From Nitrobacter sp. NHB1 (GTDB lineage Bacteria > Pseudomonadota > Alphaproteobacteria > Rhizobiales > Xanthobacteraceae), in contig NZ_JBAMDA010000001.1 of the NCBI RefSeq assembly GCF_036964665.1, positions 2,270,001 to 2,334,000 of the forward strand: 64,000 bases of DNA, read 5' to 3'. Under the pieces are notes generated by a model. The model did not search any database. It was not told where the DNA came from and was given only the letters and a program-made list of their open reading frames with translations. Shown in pieces: positions 36,657 to 53,434 of the stretch (positions are counted from its first letter, which is position 1; each line of letters starts with the position of its first letter). Position numbers and translations under genes: made by a program.

Positions 36657-37340
36657 TCAATAACACCGCGCTGCGGCGATCGTGTGCATGCGCCTGTCGC
36701 CGAGTACATGCGCGATGAAATCGGCCGAGAAGAGTCTCGCGAACGCCTCGTCGCGAATGCTCAAACCTCCCGCGTAGGCGCCGAACGCCGGCATCACCAC
36801 GCGCGCGCCATCGCTTGCGAAACAGCGCCGCTCGATCGAACGGCCGCGCGTCGAAACCCGCGCCTTGGGATGCAGGTGGCCTGCGATTTCGCCGAATGCG
36901 CCGGTCGGTTCATGACGAAACACGATGCCGCCGACCGCGACCTCGCTCGCGACCGTGCCGCCGAGATCGTCCGGCAACGCCGGATCGTGATTGCCTGAAA
37001 TCCAGATCCAGTCGCGGCGCGCCTGCAAGGCCGAAAGCGCGTCGCGATCAGGCGCGATCAGGCGTTCATGCGCATCGCGATCGTGAAAACTGTCGCCGAG
37101 CGCGATCACCGTGCGCGGATCGAACCGTGCGACGACGGCCGCGAGCCGGCTCAGCGTTGCAACCGTATCGTACGGCGGCAGCAGCACGCCGCGGGCGGCG
37201 AAGCTCGAACCCTTTTCGAGATGCAGATCGGACACCACGAGCAGGCGCTCGTGCTCCCAGAACAGCGCACCCGAGAGATCGGCGAGCAGCGTAACGCCCG
37301 ATACGGTGACGTGCTCGCGCGTTGCACTCTCGTTCGTCAT
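36657..37340 (-). CDS. pdeM: Ligase-associated DNA-damage endonuclease PdeM
   Basis: 227 residues. Calcineurin-like metallophosphoesterase with the motif set VVSDLHLEKG, ALGDSFHDRD, SGNHDPALPDDL and IAGHLHPKA. These features and length match the family found beside an ATP-dependent DNA ligase, a Lhr-like helicase and an exonuclease in a bacterial DNA-damage operon. Here only the helicase lies upstream, separated by a composite repeat; the ligase and exonuclease are not in the window. Substrate specificity is inferred from family. Confidence 0.9.
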   Translation of the reverse strand: MTNESATREHVTVSGVTLLADLSGALFWEHERLLVVSDLHLEKGSSFAARGVLLPPYDTVATLSRLAAVVARFDPRTVIALGDSFHDRDAHERLIAPDRDALSALQARRDWIWISGNHDPALPDDLGGTVASEVAVGGIVFRHEPTGAFGEIAGHLHPKARVSTRGRSIERRCFASDGARVVMPAFGAYAGGLSIRDEAFARLFSADFIAHVLGDRRMHTIAAARCY

Positions 37341-37365: not shown

Positions 37366-37483
37366 CGTCATTGCGAGCGAAGCGAAGCAATCCAGACAAG
37401 CCCCCACCTCGACCCGCCCCCGCAAGCGGAGGAGGGAGAAAGGGGACTGGATTGCTTCGTCGCTGACGCTCCTCGCAATGACG
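37366..37483. repeat. Composite palindromic repeat, family A (copy 3) with nested insert
   Basis: Outer arms CGTCATTGCGAGCGAAGCGA and CTGGATTGCTTCGTCG ending GCAATGACG as in other family A copies. The centre is replaced by a C-rich segment (CCCCCACCTCGACCC, GGAGGAGGGAGAAAGGGG) resembling the family D element at 53.3 kb. It lies between the helicase and pdeM genes. Confidence 0.82.
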
Positions 37484-37504
37484 ATTCAACCTGATCATCC
37501 TGCC

Positions 37505-40177
37505 TTAATCCCGCGCTATCGCCTCGCGCACCAGTTCCTCGGCGGCTTCCGCCAGCAGTTCATCCGACGCCTCGCCATAGATCGCCTCGCGGCCGATCTC
37601 CAGCATCACCGGAACCGCGAGCGGCGAAATGCGGTCGAGCGGCTTGTGGGTGATCCGGCCCCTGATCCGCGCTAGCATATCGCTCAGGCGGCGGATATCC
37701 AGCAACCCGGCCGCCGCATCGGCACGCGCCGCGCGCAACAGCACATGATCGGGCTGATGCTTGCGCAGCACGTCGTAGACGAGATCGGTGGAGAACAAAA
37801 CCTGCCGCCGGGTCTTCTCATCAGAAGTCGAACGCCGCGCGATCAGCCCGGAGATGATCGCGCAACTGCGGAACGTGCGCTTCATCAGCGCCGATTCCGC
37901 AAGCCATGCCTCGAGATCGTCGCCCAGCATGTCCGGATCGAACAGCGCATCGAGATCAAGCTGGCGCTGCCGGATCATCGACGAGATGTCGCCGAGCATC
38001 CAGATCGCCAGCGCATATTCGTTGGCGACGAAGCCGAGCGGCCGCACGCGCATCCGCTCCAGCCGCCGCGTCAACAGCATGCCGAGGGTCTGGTGCGCGA
38101 GCCGTCCTTCGAACGGATAGCAGACAAGGTAATGCTTGTCGGCGCGCGGAAAGGTCTCGACGATCATCTCGCGCGCATGCGGCACGCTCGAAAAATGCGA
38201 CTGCAGCGACAGCCATTCCCGCACCTGATCCGGTAAGCCGCTCCATGCGCGCTTGTCGTCGAGAAGGTTGCGCACGCGTTCCGCGAGATAGGTCGAGAGC
38301 GGAAACTTGCCACCCATATAGGACGGCACCTTTGGGCTCTCGTCGTTGGCGCGCAAGACGTAAACCTGATCCTCGACCAGCGCCTCGTAGCGCACGATCT
38401 CGCCGCCGAACACGAAAGTGTCGCCGGCGACGAGACCTTCGATGAAATATTCCTCGATCTCACCGAGCATCCGGCCGCCGCTTGCGATGGCACCGGTCGA
38501 ACCTTTACCTCTGTTTTGGCCGCCATGCCGCGAGCGCACCAGCTTCACCTTCAGCATCGCCTCCTCGACAATGGTGCCGACGTTGAGGCGATAGCTCTGC
38601 CGCACGCGCGGATTGGCGACGCGCCAGCGGCCCTCTTTGTCCTGCCTGATGCGGGCGAAGCGCTCATAGCTTTTCAGCGCATAGCCGCCGGTGGCGACGA
38701 AATCGATCACGTCGTCGAAGTCGGCGCGTGCGAGGTCCGCATAGGGCGCTGCGGTCCGCACCTCGTCGTAGAGCCGATCGGCATGGAACGGCTCGCCGCA
38801 GGCGCAGCCCATAACATGCTGCGCCAGCACGTCGAGCGCACCGGTGCGCAATGGCGGGGTATCCTGCGCGTTCTCGTTGACCGCGTCGATGGCGACGCGG
38901 CATTCCAGCACCTCGAATCGATTGGCCGGCACCAGCACCGCGCGCGAGGCCTCATCGAGACGGTGATTGGCGCGGCCAATCCGCTGCATCAGCCGCGACG
39001 CGCCTTTCGGCGCGCCGATGTTGATGACGAGATCGACGTCGCCCCAGTCGACGCCGAGATCGAGCGAGGAGGTGCAGACCACGCCGCGAAGGCGGCCTTC
39101 CGTCATGGCCTGCTCCACTTTGCGGCGCTGCGCGACATCGAGCGAGCCGTGATGCAGTGCTATGGCGAGACCGTCGTCGTTGATGCGCCAGAGATCCTGG
39201 AACAGCATCTCGGCCTGGCTGCGGGTGTTGACGAACACCAGCGTGGTCCTGTTGCGCTTGATGAGATCGTAGACCTCGGCCAACGCATGGCGCGCCGAAT
39301 GCCCGGCCCACGGCAGCCGCTCGCTTGTATCGAGCATCTCGACAATCGGGGCCGCGGCGCCGCCGGCCACGACGATATCGGCAGAGACAGCCTCGCCGCA
39401 CGGCTGCGGCACCAGAAATCGCGCCAGCGACTCCGGTTCCGCCACCGTCGCCGACAATCCGACCATGCGCATCCGCGGCGCCAGCCGCCACAGCCGCGCC
39501 AGCGCGAGTGACAACAGATCGCCGCGTTTCGAGGTCACCAGCGCATGGAGTTCGTCGAGCACCACGCGCTGCAACGACGAAAATAAAAACGGCGCATCGT
39601 CGGAGGCGAGCAGCAGCGCCATCTGCTCCGGCGTCGTCAGCAGGATGTCCGGCGGATAGCGCCGCTGCCGCTGCCGCCGCGACACCGGCGTATCGCCGGT
39701 GCGGGTCTCGACTTTGATCGGCAGCTTCATCTCTGCGACCGGCGCTTCCAGATTGCGGGCGATATCGACCGCCAGCGCCTTCAGCGGCGAGATGTAGAGC
39801 GTGTGGAGGCCGCGCGTCTTACTTCCCTCTCCCCTCGCGGGAGAGGGTGATCCGACGCGGAGCGGAGGATCGGGTGAGGGGGTGAACAAACCCGATCGTT
39901 GCCGAAGAAGCCCCCTCACCCGGTTCACCGCCTTCGGCGGCTCGCCACCCTCTCCCACGAGGGGAGAGGGAAAGTAAGAAAGCTCCACCAGCGTCGGCAG
40001 AAACCCCGCCAGCGTCTTGCCGGCACCGGTGGGCGCGATCAGCAGCACCGAGCGGCAGGCGCGGGCCTTTTGCAGCAACGCCAACTGATGCGCGCGCGGC
40101 GACCATCCTCGCGCCGCGAACCAGCGCAGGAAGCCCTCGGGCAGCGCAGGCTGCTCCTCGCGATCAGCAATTCCCAC
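37505..40177 (-). CDS. Ligase-associated DEXH-box DNA helicase (Lhr-like) with in-frame insertion
   Basis: 890 residues from a GTG (VGIADREEQPALPEGF); the frame is open another 50 codons upstream but that part looks non-coding. Motifs: Walker A APTGAGKT (near 50), DELH box (VVLDELHAL), GLSATV, VFVNTRSQAEMLF, TSSLDLGVDWG and QRIGRANHRL. The C-terminal Lhr-type region is complete. Matches the ligase-associated DNA-damage helicase family (TIGR04121), a 3'-5' DNA/RNA-hybrid unwinding type. Between motif I and motif Ia, residues about 67-120 are encoded by an inserted palindromic element (39818-39978) that keeps the frame. Without it the length matches the family. Upstream of pdeM. Confidence 0.92.
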   Translation of the reverse strand: MGIADREEQPALPEGFLRWFAARGWSPRAHQLALLQKARACRSVLLIAPTGAGKTLAGFLPTLVELSYFPSPLVGEGGEPPKAVNRVRGLLRQRSGLFTPSPDPPLRVGSPSPARGEGSKTRGLHTLYISPLKALAVDIARNLEAPVAEMKLPIKVETRTGDTPVSRRQRQRRYPPDILLTTPEQMALLLASDDAPFLFSSLQRVVLDELHALVTSKRGDLLSLALARLWRLAPRMRMVGLSATVAEPESLARFLVPQPCGEAVSADIVVAGGAAAPIVEMLDTSERLPWAGHSARHALAEVYDLIKRNRTTLVFVNTRSQAEMLFQDLWRINDDGLAIALHHGSLDVAQRRKVEQAMTEGRLRGVVCTSSLDLGVDWGDVDLVINIGAPKGASRLMQRIGRANHRLDEASRAVLVPANRFEVLECRVAIDAVNENAQDTPPLRTGALDVLAQHVMGCACGEPFHADRLYDEVRTAAPYADLARADFDDVIDFVATGGYALKSYERFARIRQDKEGRWRVANPRVRQSYRLNVGTIVEEAMLKVKLVRSRHGGQNRGKGSTGAIASGGRMLGEIEEYFIEGLVAGDTFVFGGEIVRYEALVEDQVYVLRANDESPKVPSYMGGKFPLSTYLAERVRNLLDDKRAWSGLPDQVREWLSLQSHFSSVPHAREMIVETFPRADKHYLVCYPFEGRLAHQTLGMLLTRRLERMRVRPLGFVANEYALAIWMLGDISSMIRQRQLDLDALFDPDMLGDDLEAWLAESALMKRTFRSCAIISGLIARRSTSDEKTRRQVLFSTDLVYDVLRKHQPDHVLLRAARADAAAGLLDIRRLSDMLARIRGRITHKPLDRISPLAVPVMLEIGREAIYGEASDELLAEAAEELVREAIARD
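39818..39978. repeat. Palindromic element (family D) inserted in frame in the helicase gene
   Basis: 161 bp with inverted ends of ~37 bp: left CTTACTTCCCTCTCCCCTCG then CGGGAGAGGGTG, right its near-complement ending GGGGAGAGGGAAAGTAAG (one base longer, one change). Each arm is itself a small hairpin (CCTCTCCC/GGGAGAGG). Both arms and the centre are read through in the helicase frame, giving a Pro/Gly/Arg-rich peptide that begins FPSPLVGEGG. The same kind of sequence is normally intergenic in this group; a relative is at 53.3 kb. Confidence 0.88.
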
Positions 40178-40469
40178 GCCCTCAGAGGTAGGCCGTCCCG
40201 CTTGCCCGGTCGAGGCCGGGAACGATGCGCACCGCGCCCCTCCCAAGGAGCGAATCAGCGAACACACGAACCGGCCGGGGTTCGGCTTCAGCGTGGCTGG
40301 AGATCGCAGGCGGAGCCGCGGTAGCACCCGGACTCGCCATGTCGCACGCTGATTTTGCAGGGTTTTCGGCCTTGCACGGCATCATTCCGGGCGAGTGTGG
40401 CTACCGAACCACAGACAAGCCACCCGTCGCAGCGTACAGTTCCGAAGTCATTTGAAGATGGGGACCATA
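40178..40469. other. Divergent spacer between helicase and outer membrane protein
   Basis: About 290 bp. Open frames on both strands continue into it but have no conserved product. It should contain promoters for both neighbours; none is convincing by eye. Confidence 0.45.
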
Positions 40470-52261: not shown

Positions 52262-52537
52262 ATCGCGCCGGCGGGGCCTGGTCAAAGCGCCAAACCCGCT
52301 GAAGCCCTCAAACGCAGTTCGTTGCTCTCTTGGAGGATTGAATCCATTATCATTCCTTGTAGAGCCGAAGTATGTTCAATGAACCTCGAATATTTTGTTC
52401 CGACGCCCATCCTGTAGGGGTGGCACGACAAATCCCCCCTGTATATTGGGCAAATGATTTGTTTTTGCGCCGAGCGATTCGACTGGCGCCGGATATGGCA
52501 GAATCCGGGCGATACTCCCGCCTCCGGATTTTCTGAC

Positions 52538-53290
52538 ATGGCCCGCGCACTCCTTTATCGACGTCCCGCCGAACCCTCCCGGCTTCTTATCAAACACGGT
52601 TCGCAAATCTATTCGGTGCGCTTGCGCCGGCATCGCCGCGCCCGCCGTTACACCTTGCGAATCCATCCGAGCGACCGCGAAGCGATCCTGACCATGCCGC
52701 CGCGGGGAACGCTTCCGGAGGCCAAGGACTTTGCGCAGCGTCACGGCGGCTGGATCGCGGCGCGCCTCGGGCGCCTGCCGAAGGCGGCGCCGTTCCACCA
52801 CGGCGCGGTCATTCCGCTGCGCGGCGTCGCCCATCGGATTGTGCATCGCGCCGGCGAGCGCGGCACTGTGTGGACCGAAACACGCGACAGCGGCGAGCGC
52901 ATTCTCTGTATCGCCGGCGGACTCGAATATCTCGACCGGCGTGTGCACGATTTTCTGAAGCGGGAAGCACGGCGCGACCTGCAAAAAGCCACGCAACGCT
53001 ACGCCGATACGCTGAGCGTCAAGGTCAAGCGTCTTTCGATCCGCGATCAGTCGAGCCGCTGGGGATCGTGCACCTCGTCGGGATCGCTGTCGTTCTCATG
53101 GCGGCTCATCCTGGCGCCGCCGTTCGTGCTGGACTATCTCGCCGCCCACGAGGTCGCCCACCTCGTTGAAATGAATCATTCGCCGCGATTCTGGAAGGTG
53201 GTGGCGCGGATCTGCAATCATGTCGAGCGGGCCAAGAAGTGGCTCGACGCCGAAGGCAACGATCTCCACCGCTACGGCATTCAGGATTAG
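52538..53290 (+). CDS. YgjP-like zinc metallopeptidase (DUF45/M48-type)
   Basis: 250 residues from MARALLYRRPAEPSRL. N-terminal arginine-rich beta region (SVRLRRHRRARRYTLRIHPS), then the DUF45 core: SSRWGSCTSSGSLSFSWRLI and the zinc motif HEVAHLVEMNHSPRFW (HExxH plus a third His). Members are putative cytosolic metal-dependent hydrolases; the substrate is unknown. The open frame extends 28 codons upstream without conserved features. It is followed by repeat family D copy 2. Confidence 0.9.
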   Translation: MARALLYRRPAEPSRLLIKHGSQIYSVRLRRHRRARRYTLRIHPSDREAILTMPPRGTLPEAKDFAQRHGGWIAARLGRLPKAAPFHHGAVIPLRGVAHRIVHRAGERGTVWTETRDSGERILCIAGGLEYLDRRVHDFLKREARRDLQKATQRYADTLSVKVKRLSIRDQSSRWGSCTSSGSLSFSWRLILAPPFVLDYLAAHEVAHLVEMNHSPRFWKVVARICNHVERAKKWLDAEGNDLHRYGIQD

Positions 53291-53323: not shown

Positions 53324-53434
53324 TACCTCTCCCGCTTGCGGGGGAGGTCGACCCACGAAGTCGGTCGGGTGGGGGCTCTTACTACTGGACACTTGCCCCC
53401 TCCCCAACCCTCCCCCGCAAGCCGGAGAGGGAGC
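53324..53434. repeat. Palindromic repeat related to family D (copy 2)
   Basis: Left TACCTCTCCCGCTTGCGGGG then GAGGTCGACCC, right CCCTCCCCCGCAAGCCGGAG then AGGG; the arms are complementary in part and each forms a hairpin. It lies between the YgjP-like gene and the converging PBP1A gene. Confidence 0.75.

Follow-up and report, generated by a model that had tools for sequence, protein, structure and literature searches.

RPE are palindromic repeats of about 150 bp, many of which lie in frame in unrelated genes (PMC10969869). REPs of the GTAG/CGTC type have been found in frame in repair and replication genes, including those for DNA polymerase I and DnaE2, and in recB of X. campestris and X. oryzae they occupy about the same site, and flexible linkers have been proposed (PMC3733652). 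The E. coli triplex motif, TM_ECO, is built from the arms CCCTCTCCC / GGGAGAGGG / GGGTGAGGG, sometimes as inverted pairs, and is always intergenic in that species; the search rule for triplex motifs asks for three arms with loops of 1-6 nt (PMC4666352). Br-REP1 and Br-REP2 of Bradyrhizobium are many-copy palindromes of intergenic regions and 3'-UTRs (PMC5082802).

We analysed a palindromic element that lies inside the gene for a ligase-associated DEXH helicase of the nitrite-oxidising bacterium Nitrobacter sp. NHB1, in a stretch of 64,000 nucleotides referred to below as the window. The gene, its neighbour and the parts of the protein that border the element are:

37505 to 40327, minus strand: ligase-associated DEXH helicase (TIGR04121), a 940-codon ORF with a putative GTG start
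36657 to 37340, minus strand: pdeM, ligase-associated endonuclease (TIGR04123), adjoining the helicase gene
40013 to 40033, minus strand: PTGAGKT, residues 99-105, which we take to be motif I (Walker A)
39770 to 39790, minus strand: SPLKALA, residues 180-186, presumably the motif Ia region
39809 to 39985, minus strand: codons of the variable loop E115-G173 (59 residues), between motif I and the motif Ia region

The helicase ORF scored 1096.9 bits against the TIGR04121 profile, above the curated cut-off of 850, and pdeM scored 229.5 bits against TIGR04123 (cut-off 150); with pdeM adjacent, the helicase has the gene neighbourhood expected of a ligase-associated enzyme. Its body gave dN/dS values of 0.083-0.117 against seven congeners, which agrees with the view of an earlier note on this DNA that the helicase outside the repeat is intact. 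The open ORF, the high profile score and the body dN/dS of about 0.1 together rule out a pseudogene or a frameshift. A further sort of repeat was seen at about 37370-37490 of the window, on the plus strand, at the end of the helicase gene and before pdeM; if read, it gives the peptide IASEAKQS..WIASSLTLLAMT, and similar strings occur at about 1950-2010 and 36615.

Aligned by sequence to the solved Lhr-type helicase chain 5v9x, the variable loop has its place between residues 84 and 94 of that chain. The loop is expected to be disordered and to lie away from the catalytic core; an AlphaFold model made with 37 close relatives reached a pLDDT of 49.5, too poor for placing it. The corresponding loop of N. 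winogradskyi has 8 residues, and 25 residues is the length common in the wider family. The gain of about 53 residues given in the earlier note is therefore close to the difference from N. winogradskyi (51 residues) and too large relative to the common form (about 34 residues).

The insert responsible for this length has the following parts:

39818 to 39978, minus strand: palindromic element of 161 bp, sort A (our own label), read in frame
39823 to 39849 and 39946 to 39972: outer arms of the element, 27 nt, 96% complementary (inverted-repeat search)
39862 to 39931: inner inverted repeat with GGGTGAGGG and CCCTCACCC, arms 39862-39882 and 39911-39931, 21 nt, 86% complementary
39826 to 39846: palindrome 1, CCTCTCCC..GGGAGAGG
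39949 to 39969: palindrome 2, 123 bp from palindrome 1

Thus, as first noticed, a 161-bp palindromic repeat is read in frame and without a stop between motifs I and Ia. Since 161 is not divisible by three, the frame is kept jointly with flanking bases. The insert reads as a linker rich in Pro, Gly, Arg, Ser and Ala, and, going by the sequence, we presume that the long form of the protein is translated. Structurally, the element comprises two CCCTCTCCC..GGGAGAGGG palindromes at a spacing of 123 bp, which enclose GGGTGAGGG and CCCTCACCC. Its coding strand pairs end to end at -113.9 kcal/mol, against -69.2 kcal/mol (sd 4.2) for shuffled sequences (z -10.8), and none of 200 dinucleotide shuffles folded as low. 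Inverted ends of about 37 bp had been proposed; the ungapped arms are only the 27 nt listed, and it is in the fold that the pairing extends to the element ends. The element has terminal inverted repeats, as expected of a MITE, and no target-site duplication was seen by eye in the full and empty helicase sets compared. Rfam at the gathering cut-off gave no match anywhere in the window.

The window element is like RPE in that it is palindromic and forms an in-frame part of a conserved gene. It differs from RPE in its bacterial group, in that different sorts of element fill the loop of one gene across the family, and in the apparent replacement and collapse of elements described below. Unlike the GTAG/CGTC REPs, the 161 bp contain no GTAG, CTAC or CGTC on the plus strand (there is one internal GACG, at 39854), and no GTAG/CGTC tag stands at the palindrome end. 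The element shares its arms with TM_ECO; by the strict triplex motif rule it falls outside, as its third arm is 26 nt away, not 3. The polA element of the same genome has the arm-arm-CCG-third-arm layout, in which the second loop is the 3-nt CCG, compared with 26 nt in the window element. With Br-REP1 and Br-REP2 it shares the bacterial family and the character of a repetitive palindrome with many copies, but the consensus sequences are different. By analogy, then, the mode of occupation resembles that of RPE and intragenic REPs, both of which are known, also in repair genes. In the sections of PMC3733652 considered, neither this helicase nor NrdJ or HrpB is named, nor is many-fold reoccupation of one loop.

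We analysed how often the element occurs in its own genome and where. The 161 bp gave 18 matches (both strands counted); the exact arm pattern CCTCTCCC..GGGAGAGG was found at 17 sites and CCTCCCCC..GGGGGAGG at 10 sites, whereas the reversed-pattern controls for both gave 0 sites. Joining sites less than 130 bp apart yielded 24 places, a count that rests on the two exact patterns and that diverged copies escape, as exemplified by one within the window:

53326 to 53430: another, diverged palindromic element, outside genes as far as seen, just 3' of an ORF at 52454-53290

These genomic copies, together with the shuffle tests on the window element and on the loops of relatives, rule out a chance palindrome. 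At four of the 24 places the element is in frame in a recognisable gene: this helicase, polA, an error-prone DNA polymerase that we take to be dnaE2, and a B12-dependent ribonucleotide reductase, presumably nrdJ. The suggestion that elements of this kind are normally intergenic is thus mostly right, but the helicase is not an isolated case in its genome, where other DNA-metabolism genes also carry elements; the idea that its copy was the only one within a gene was dropped after the second arm pattern revealed the others. Close to serA and to a phytase-like gene, the element is upstream of the domain. The count of recognisable genes leaves out two ORFs that span an element, in L007 and L013 (L and G numbers are our labels for loci and genomes). 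All four in-gene cases of this genome belong to DNA metabolism, which is suggestive only, being four cases of a class named afterwards.

The same linkers were then compared in relatives. In nrdJ, seven of the eight congeners read have a 26-residue empty form; in the eighth, G007 (L365), a single palindrome unlike the NHB1 element is inserted there, and L374, from another genus, also has such an insert. The element-bearing reductase with which these are compared is L299 (G000:C1:905085), and its linker is a second recurrent site. Elements were recognised by eye in the polA linker of six of 31 sequences (L219, L269, L270, L271, L273 and L277), and in the dnaE2 linker of NHB1 itself as well as of L340, L341, L342 and L345. 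The dnaE2 linkers L346 and L347, from two Nitrobacter genomes, hold another insert (CPALCRASTS / CPVLGRASTS..DVDGRD..), seemingly a further repeat family. Among 28 hrpB sequences (L334 is unaligned there), L215, L309, L312 and L316 have linker elements, and L311 and L313 are unsure; at L316 / L338 (G007, Nitrobacter) the linker seems to hold two successive elements in a 109-residue stretch. More broadly, 72 other matches were collected in relatives; some of them belong together as the two arms of a single element, and at least five recur among the 31 matches of R. rhenobacensis considered below. An ORF spans 30 of the 72, and Pfam was run on 20 of those ORFs: domains flank the element on both sides in L219 (PolA), L215 (HrpB) and L166 (two ABC domains, either a fused gene or two genes), a domain lies only downstream in L226, and the other 16 scanned ORFs have no Pfam family. 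In R. rhenobacensis no domain was found in the six Pfam-scanned of ten spanning ORFs.

To see how the helicase loop itself varies, we examined it at 110 helicase loci, 30 from a search of 61 genomes (30 of which gave classified loci; G009 and G024 were considered apart) and the best 80 from a contig search. Reading a loop required both flanks in one frame, which was the case, with no stop between them, for 109 of the 110 loci, while L046 stops at a contig end. Five loci duplicate another assembly, leaving 104 distinct loops, the window's included. Genomes of the same genus have loops whose DNA is identical to that of named Nitrobacter records, which gives the genus as Nitrobacter. By our own labels, 31 of them contain a full palindromic element, 10 a remnant or single palindrome, and 63 none; what had been taken for a single unusual case is one of 41. 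Nor do the homologues have equally long loops of unrelated sequence, since most of the longest loops in relatives themselves come from repeats. The presence of similar elements at the same helicase site in other assemblies also makes an assembly artefact unlikely.

The 31 full elements fall into seven sorts (A, 2; B, 7; C, 9; D, 4; E, 4; F, 4; G, 1), which, like the remnants, were labelled by eye from peptide and DNA, so that other workers may draw the lines differently; blastn grouping joined most loops (68 of 104) and 40 inserts, because linker and arms are shared. An inverted repeat that beat all 100 dinucleotide shuffles was present in 30 of the 104 loops, namely 28 of the 31 labelled full, two of the 10 remnants and none of the 63 others; L027, L032 and L096 are labelled full, yet have no significant inverted repeat.

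Could all these loops descend from one ancient, vertically inherited insertion that diverged until it resembled several families? CCTCYCCC-type arms are indeed common to many elements, and the Nitrobacter remnants resemble a decay series. Nevertheless, we consider this very improbable. L023, L056 and L064, which are separated by about 0.05 changes per column, hold three different elements (the closely related L085, none), and the three also differ in the bases that join the element to the helicase codons. On a helicase tree built without the loop, parsimony required 33 state changes (20 for full versus none), numbers that are approximate because 42 of the 101 inner branches of this quick tree are open; the three different elements of L023, L056 and L064, and the sisters L058 (sort A) and L125 (none), are contrasts that do not depend on the tree. 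Moreover, sorts A, B, C and E have matches elsewhere in the genomes of their bearers. Sort B gave 21-89 matches per genome (five genomes), sort C 2-37 (four genomes) and sort E 11-44 (four genomes), counting the helicase copy and both strands, with many matches partial and at most 40 candidates scored per genome; the L083 genome has one further sort-C match only, and that is partial.

It is possible, if doubtful, that replacement proceeds by recombination, with genomic copies converting the in-gene element through similar arms, which would leave little need for new insertion after the first. The different sorts do have similar arms. The loop of the window exceeds that of the congener L020 by exactly 123 nt, the spacing of the two palindromes, and L020 agrees at 43 of 54 positions with the sequence predicted for two palindromes collapsed into one; such a difference fits recombination or slippage between them (L024, L025, L026 and L028 look like further erosion). 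Simple arm-to-arm conversion is insufficient for L023, L056 and L064, since their flank bases change too, and it sits poorly with the full and empty sisters L058 and L125 and with nrdJ, which is filled in NHB1 and empty in most congeners read.

The 104 helicases were also scanned for insertions elsewhere, using alignment columns filled in fewer than 30% of rows. In the part covered, which starts 60 residues ahead of the loop and runs to the C-terminal end, no other insertions of at least 10 residues were found besides those in the loop and at one more site:

39401 to 39406, minus strand: second permissive site, directly following RFLVPQ (39404-39421) and without an insert in the window helicase

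Palindromic inserts were recognised there by eye in four of the 104 (L068, L082, L089 and L117), and G009, outside the 104, likewise has a long insert after RFLVPQ. In G024, contig 7 stops within the helicase (L234) at this same loop (SGVGGV..), which might mean that an element of this kind interrupted the assembly. That all insertions of this size are at two sites might indicate that the insertion machinery prefers the DNA of the loop, or that old palindromes, often present in the loop, serve as landing sites; PMC3733652 mentions that insertion sequences target REPs. We find such target choice unlikely, as the full and empty sets compared show by eye no shared target sequence or duplication, and similar elements in the linkers of PolA, HrpB, DnaE2 and NrdJ point to tolerance.

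We compared selection on the loop with that on the rest of the protein. Loops with sort C gave dN/dS of 0.36-0.72 and their bodies 0.02-0.08 (15 pairs from six of the nine sort-C loops), whereas element-free loops averaged 0.13-0.16 with bodies at 0.036-0.049 (three groups, 15 loci). The linker is therefore loosely constrained anyway, and more loosely when it contains an element. To gauge how readily an insertion could be read through, we turned to R. rhenobacensis, where 31 other matches to sort B span 153-183 bp. Of their 186 frames 73 were open, and 10 of the 31 lengths were divisible by three (these are match lengths, not proven element ends). By our own arithmetic, a random insertion could be readable through in very roughly one case in eight.

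These values leave the term 'exapted', used in the earlier note, unsupported. Exaptation would mean that the element-derived linker is kept for a new property of the helicase, for example as a basic flexible loop touching DNA near motif Ia. Median net charge is +3 in the 31 full-element loops and +2 in the 78 others (five duplicate assemblies among them), and sort C recurs in the helicase loops of several Bradyrhizobium species. But the charge difference is small, constraint is weaker with an element than without, the peptides that serve the same site are unrelated between sorts, and sister species lack the element, so that we hold exaptation to be highly unlikely. A related and also quite unlikely reading is that triplex- or REP-like palindromes of the Nitrobacteraceae form exchangeable modules, selectively kept in frame in the linkers of the helicase, PolA, DnaE2, NrdJ and HrpB, where they would tune repair or mutation. 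If true, the occupation of these linkers would be under selection and not merely tolerated.

Taken together, the helicase loop looks like a tolerated landing place that is filled repeatedly, and not like a one-off oddity: its insert is a repeat read in frame, many relatives hold other repeats in this loop, and a constrained body contrasts with a much looser element-bearing loop. The explanation we favour, with good though not complete confidence, is that triplex- or REP-like palindromes arrive recurrently in flexible linkers, with preservation of the reading frame as the main filter. The window insert is one copy of a dispersed palindromic element made of two inverted CCCTCTCCC..GGGAGAGGG..GGGTGAGGG units. 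New elements of several sorts may continue to arrive, whether they transpose or recombine in from copies elsewhere in the genome, and the survivors would mainly be those that preserve the frame and insert into either of the two tolerant loops. Resident elements would then decay, partly through two palindromes collapsing into one, as the loop of L020 suggests, and could be replaced. The effect of an element on the helicase is most likely near neutral. As a counterpoint to recurrent arrival, the recurrence of sort C in Bradyrhizobium suggests that some copies may be kept by selection, and the loop dN/dS is below 1. In addition, tolerance alone leaves the predominance of DNA-metabolism genes among the in-gene cases unexplained.

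In-frame palindromes as such were known already, from RPE and from REPs in repair genes; what is new is the repeated occupation of one loop by several sorts. Among the titles listed in searches of openly accessible papers, none dealt with this helicase loop. The loop provides a natural experiment, in which one enzyme loop has been filled many times by different non-coding repeats and empty sister species are available for comparison. Two questions thereby become accessible to test: by what route non-coding repeats turn into protein sequence, and whether tolerance or selection accounts for the in-gene palindromes reported from DNA repair genes (PMC3733652).
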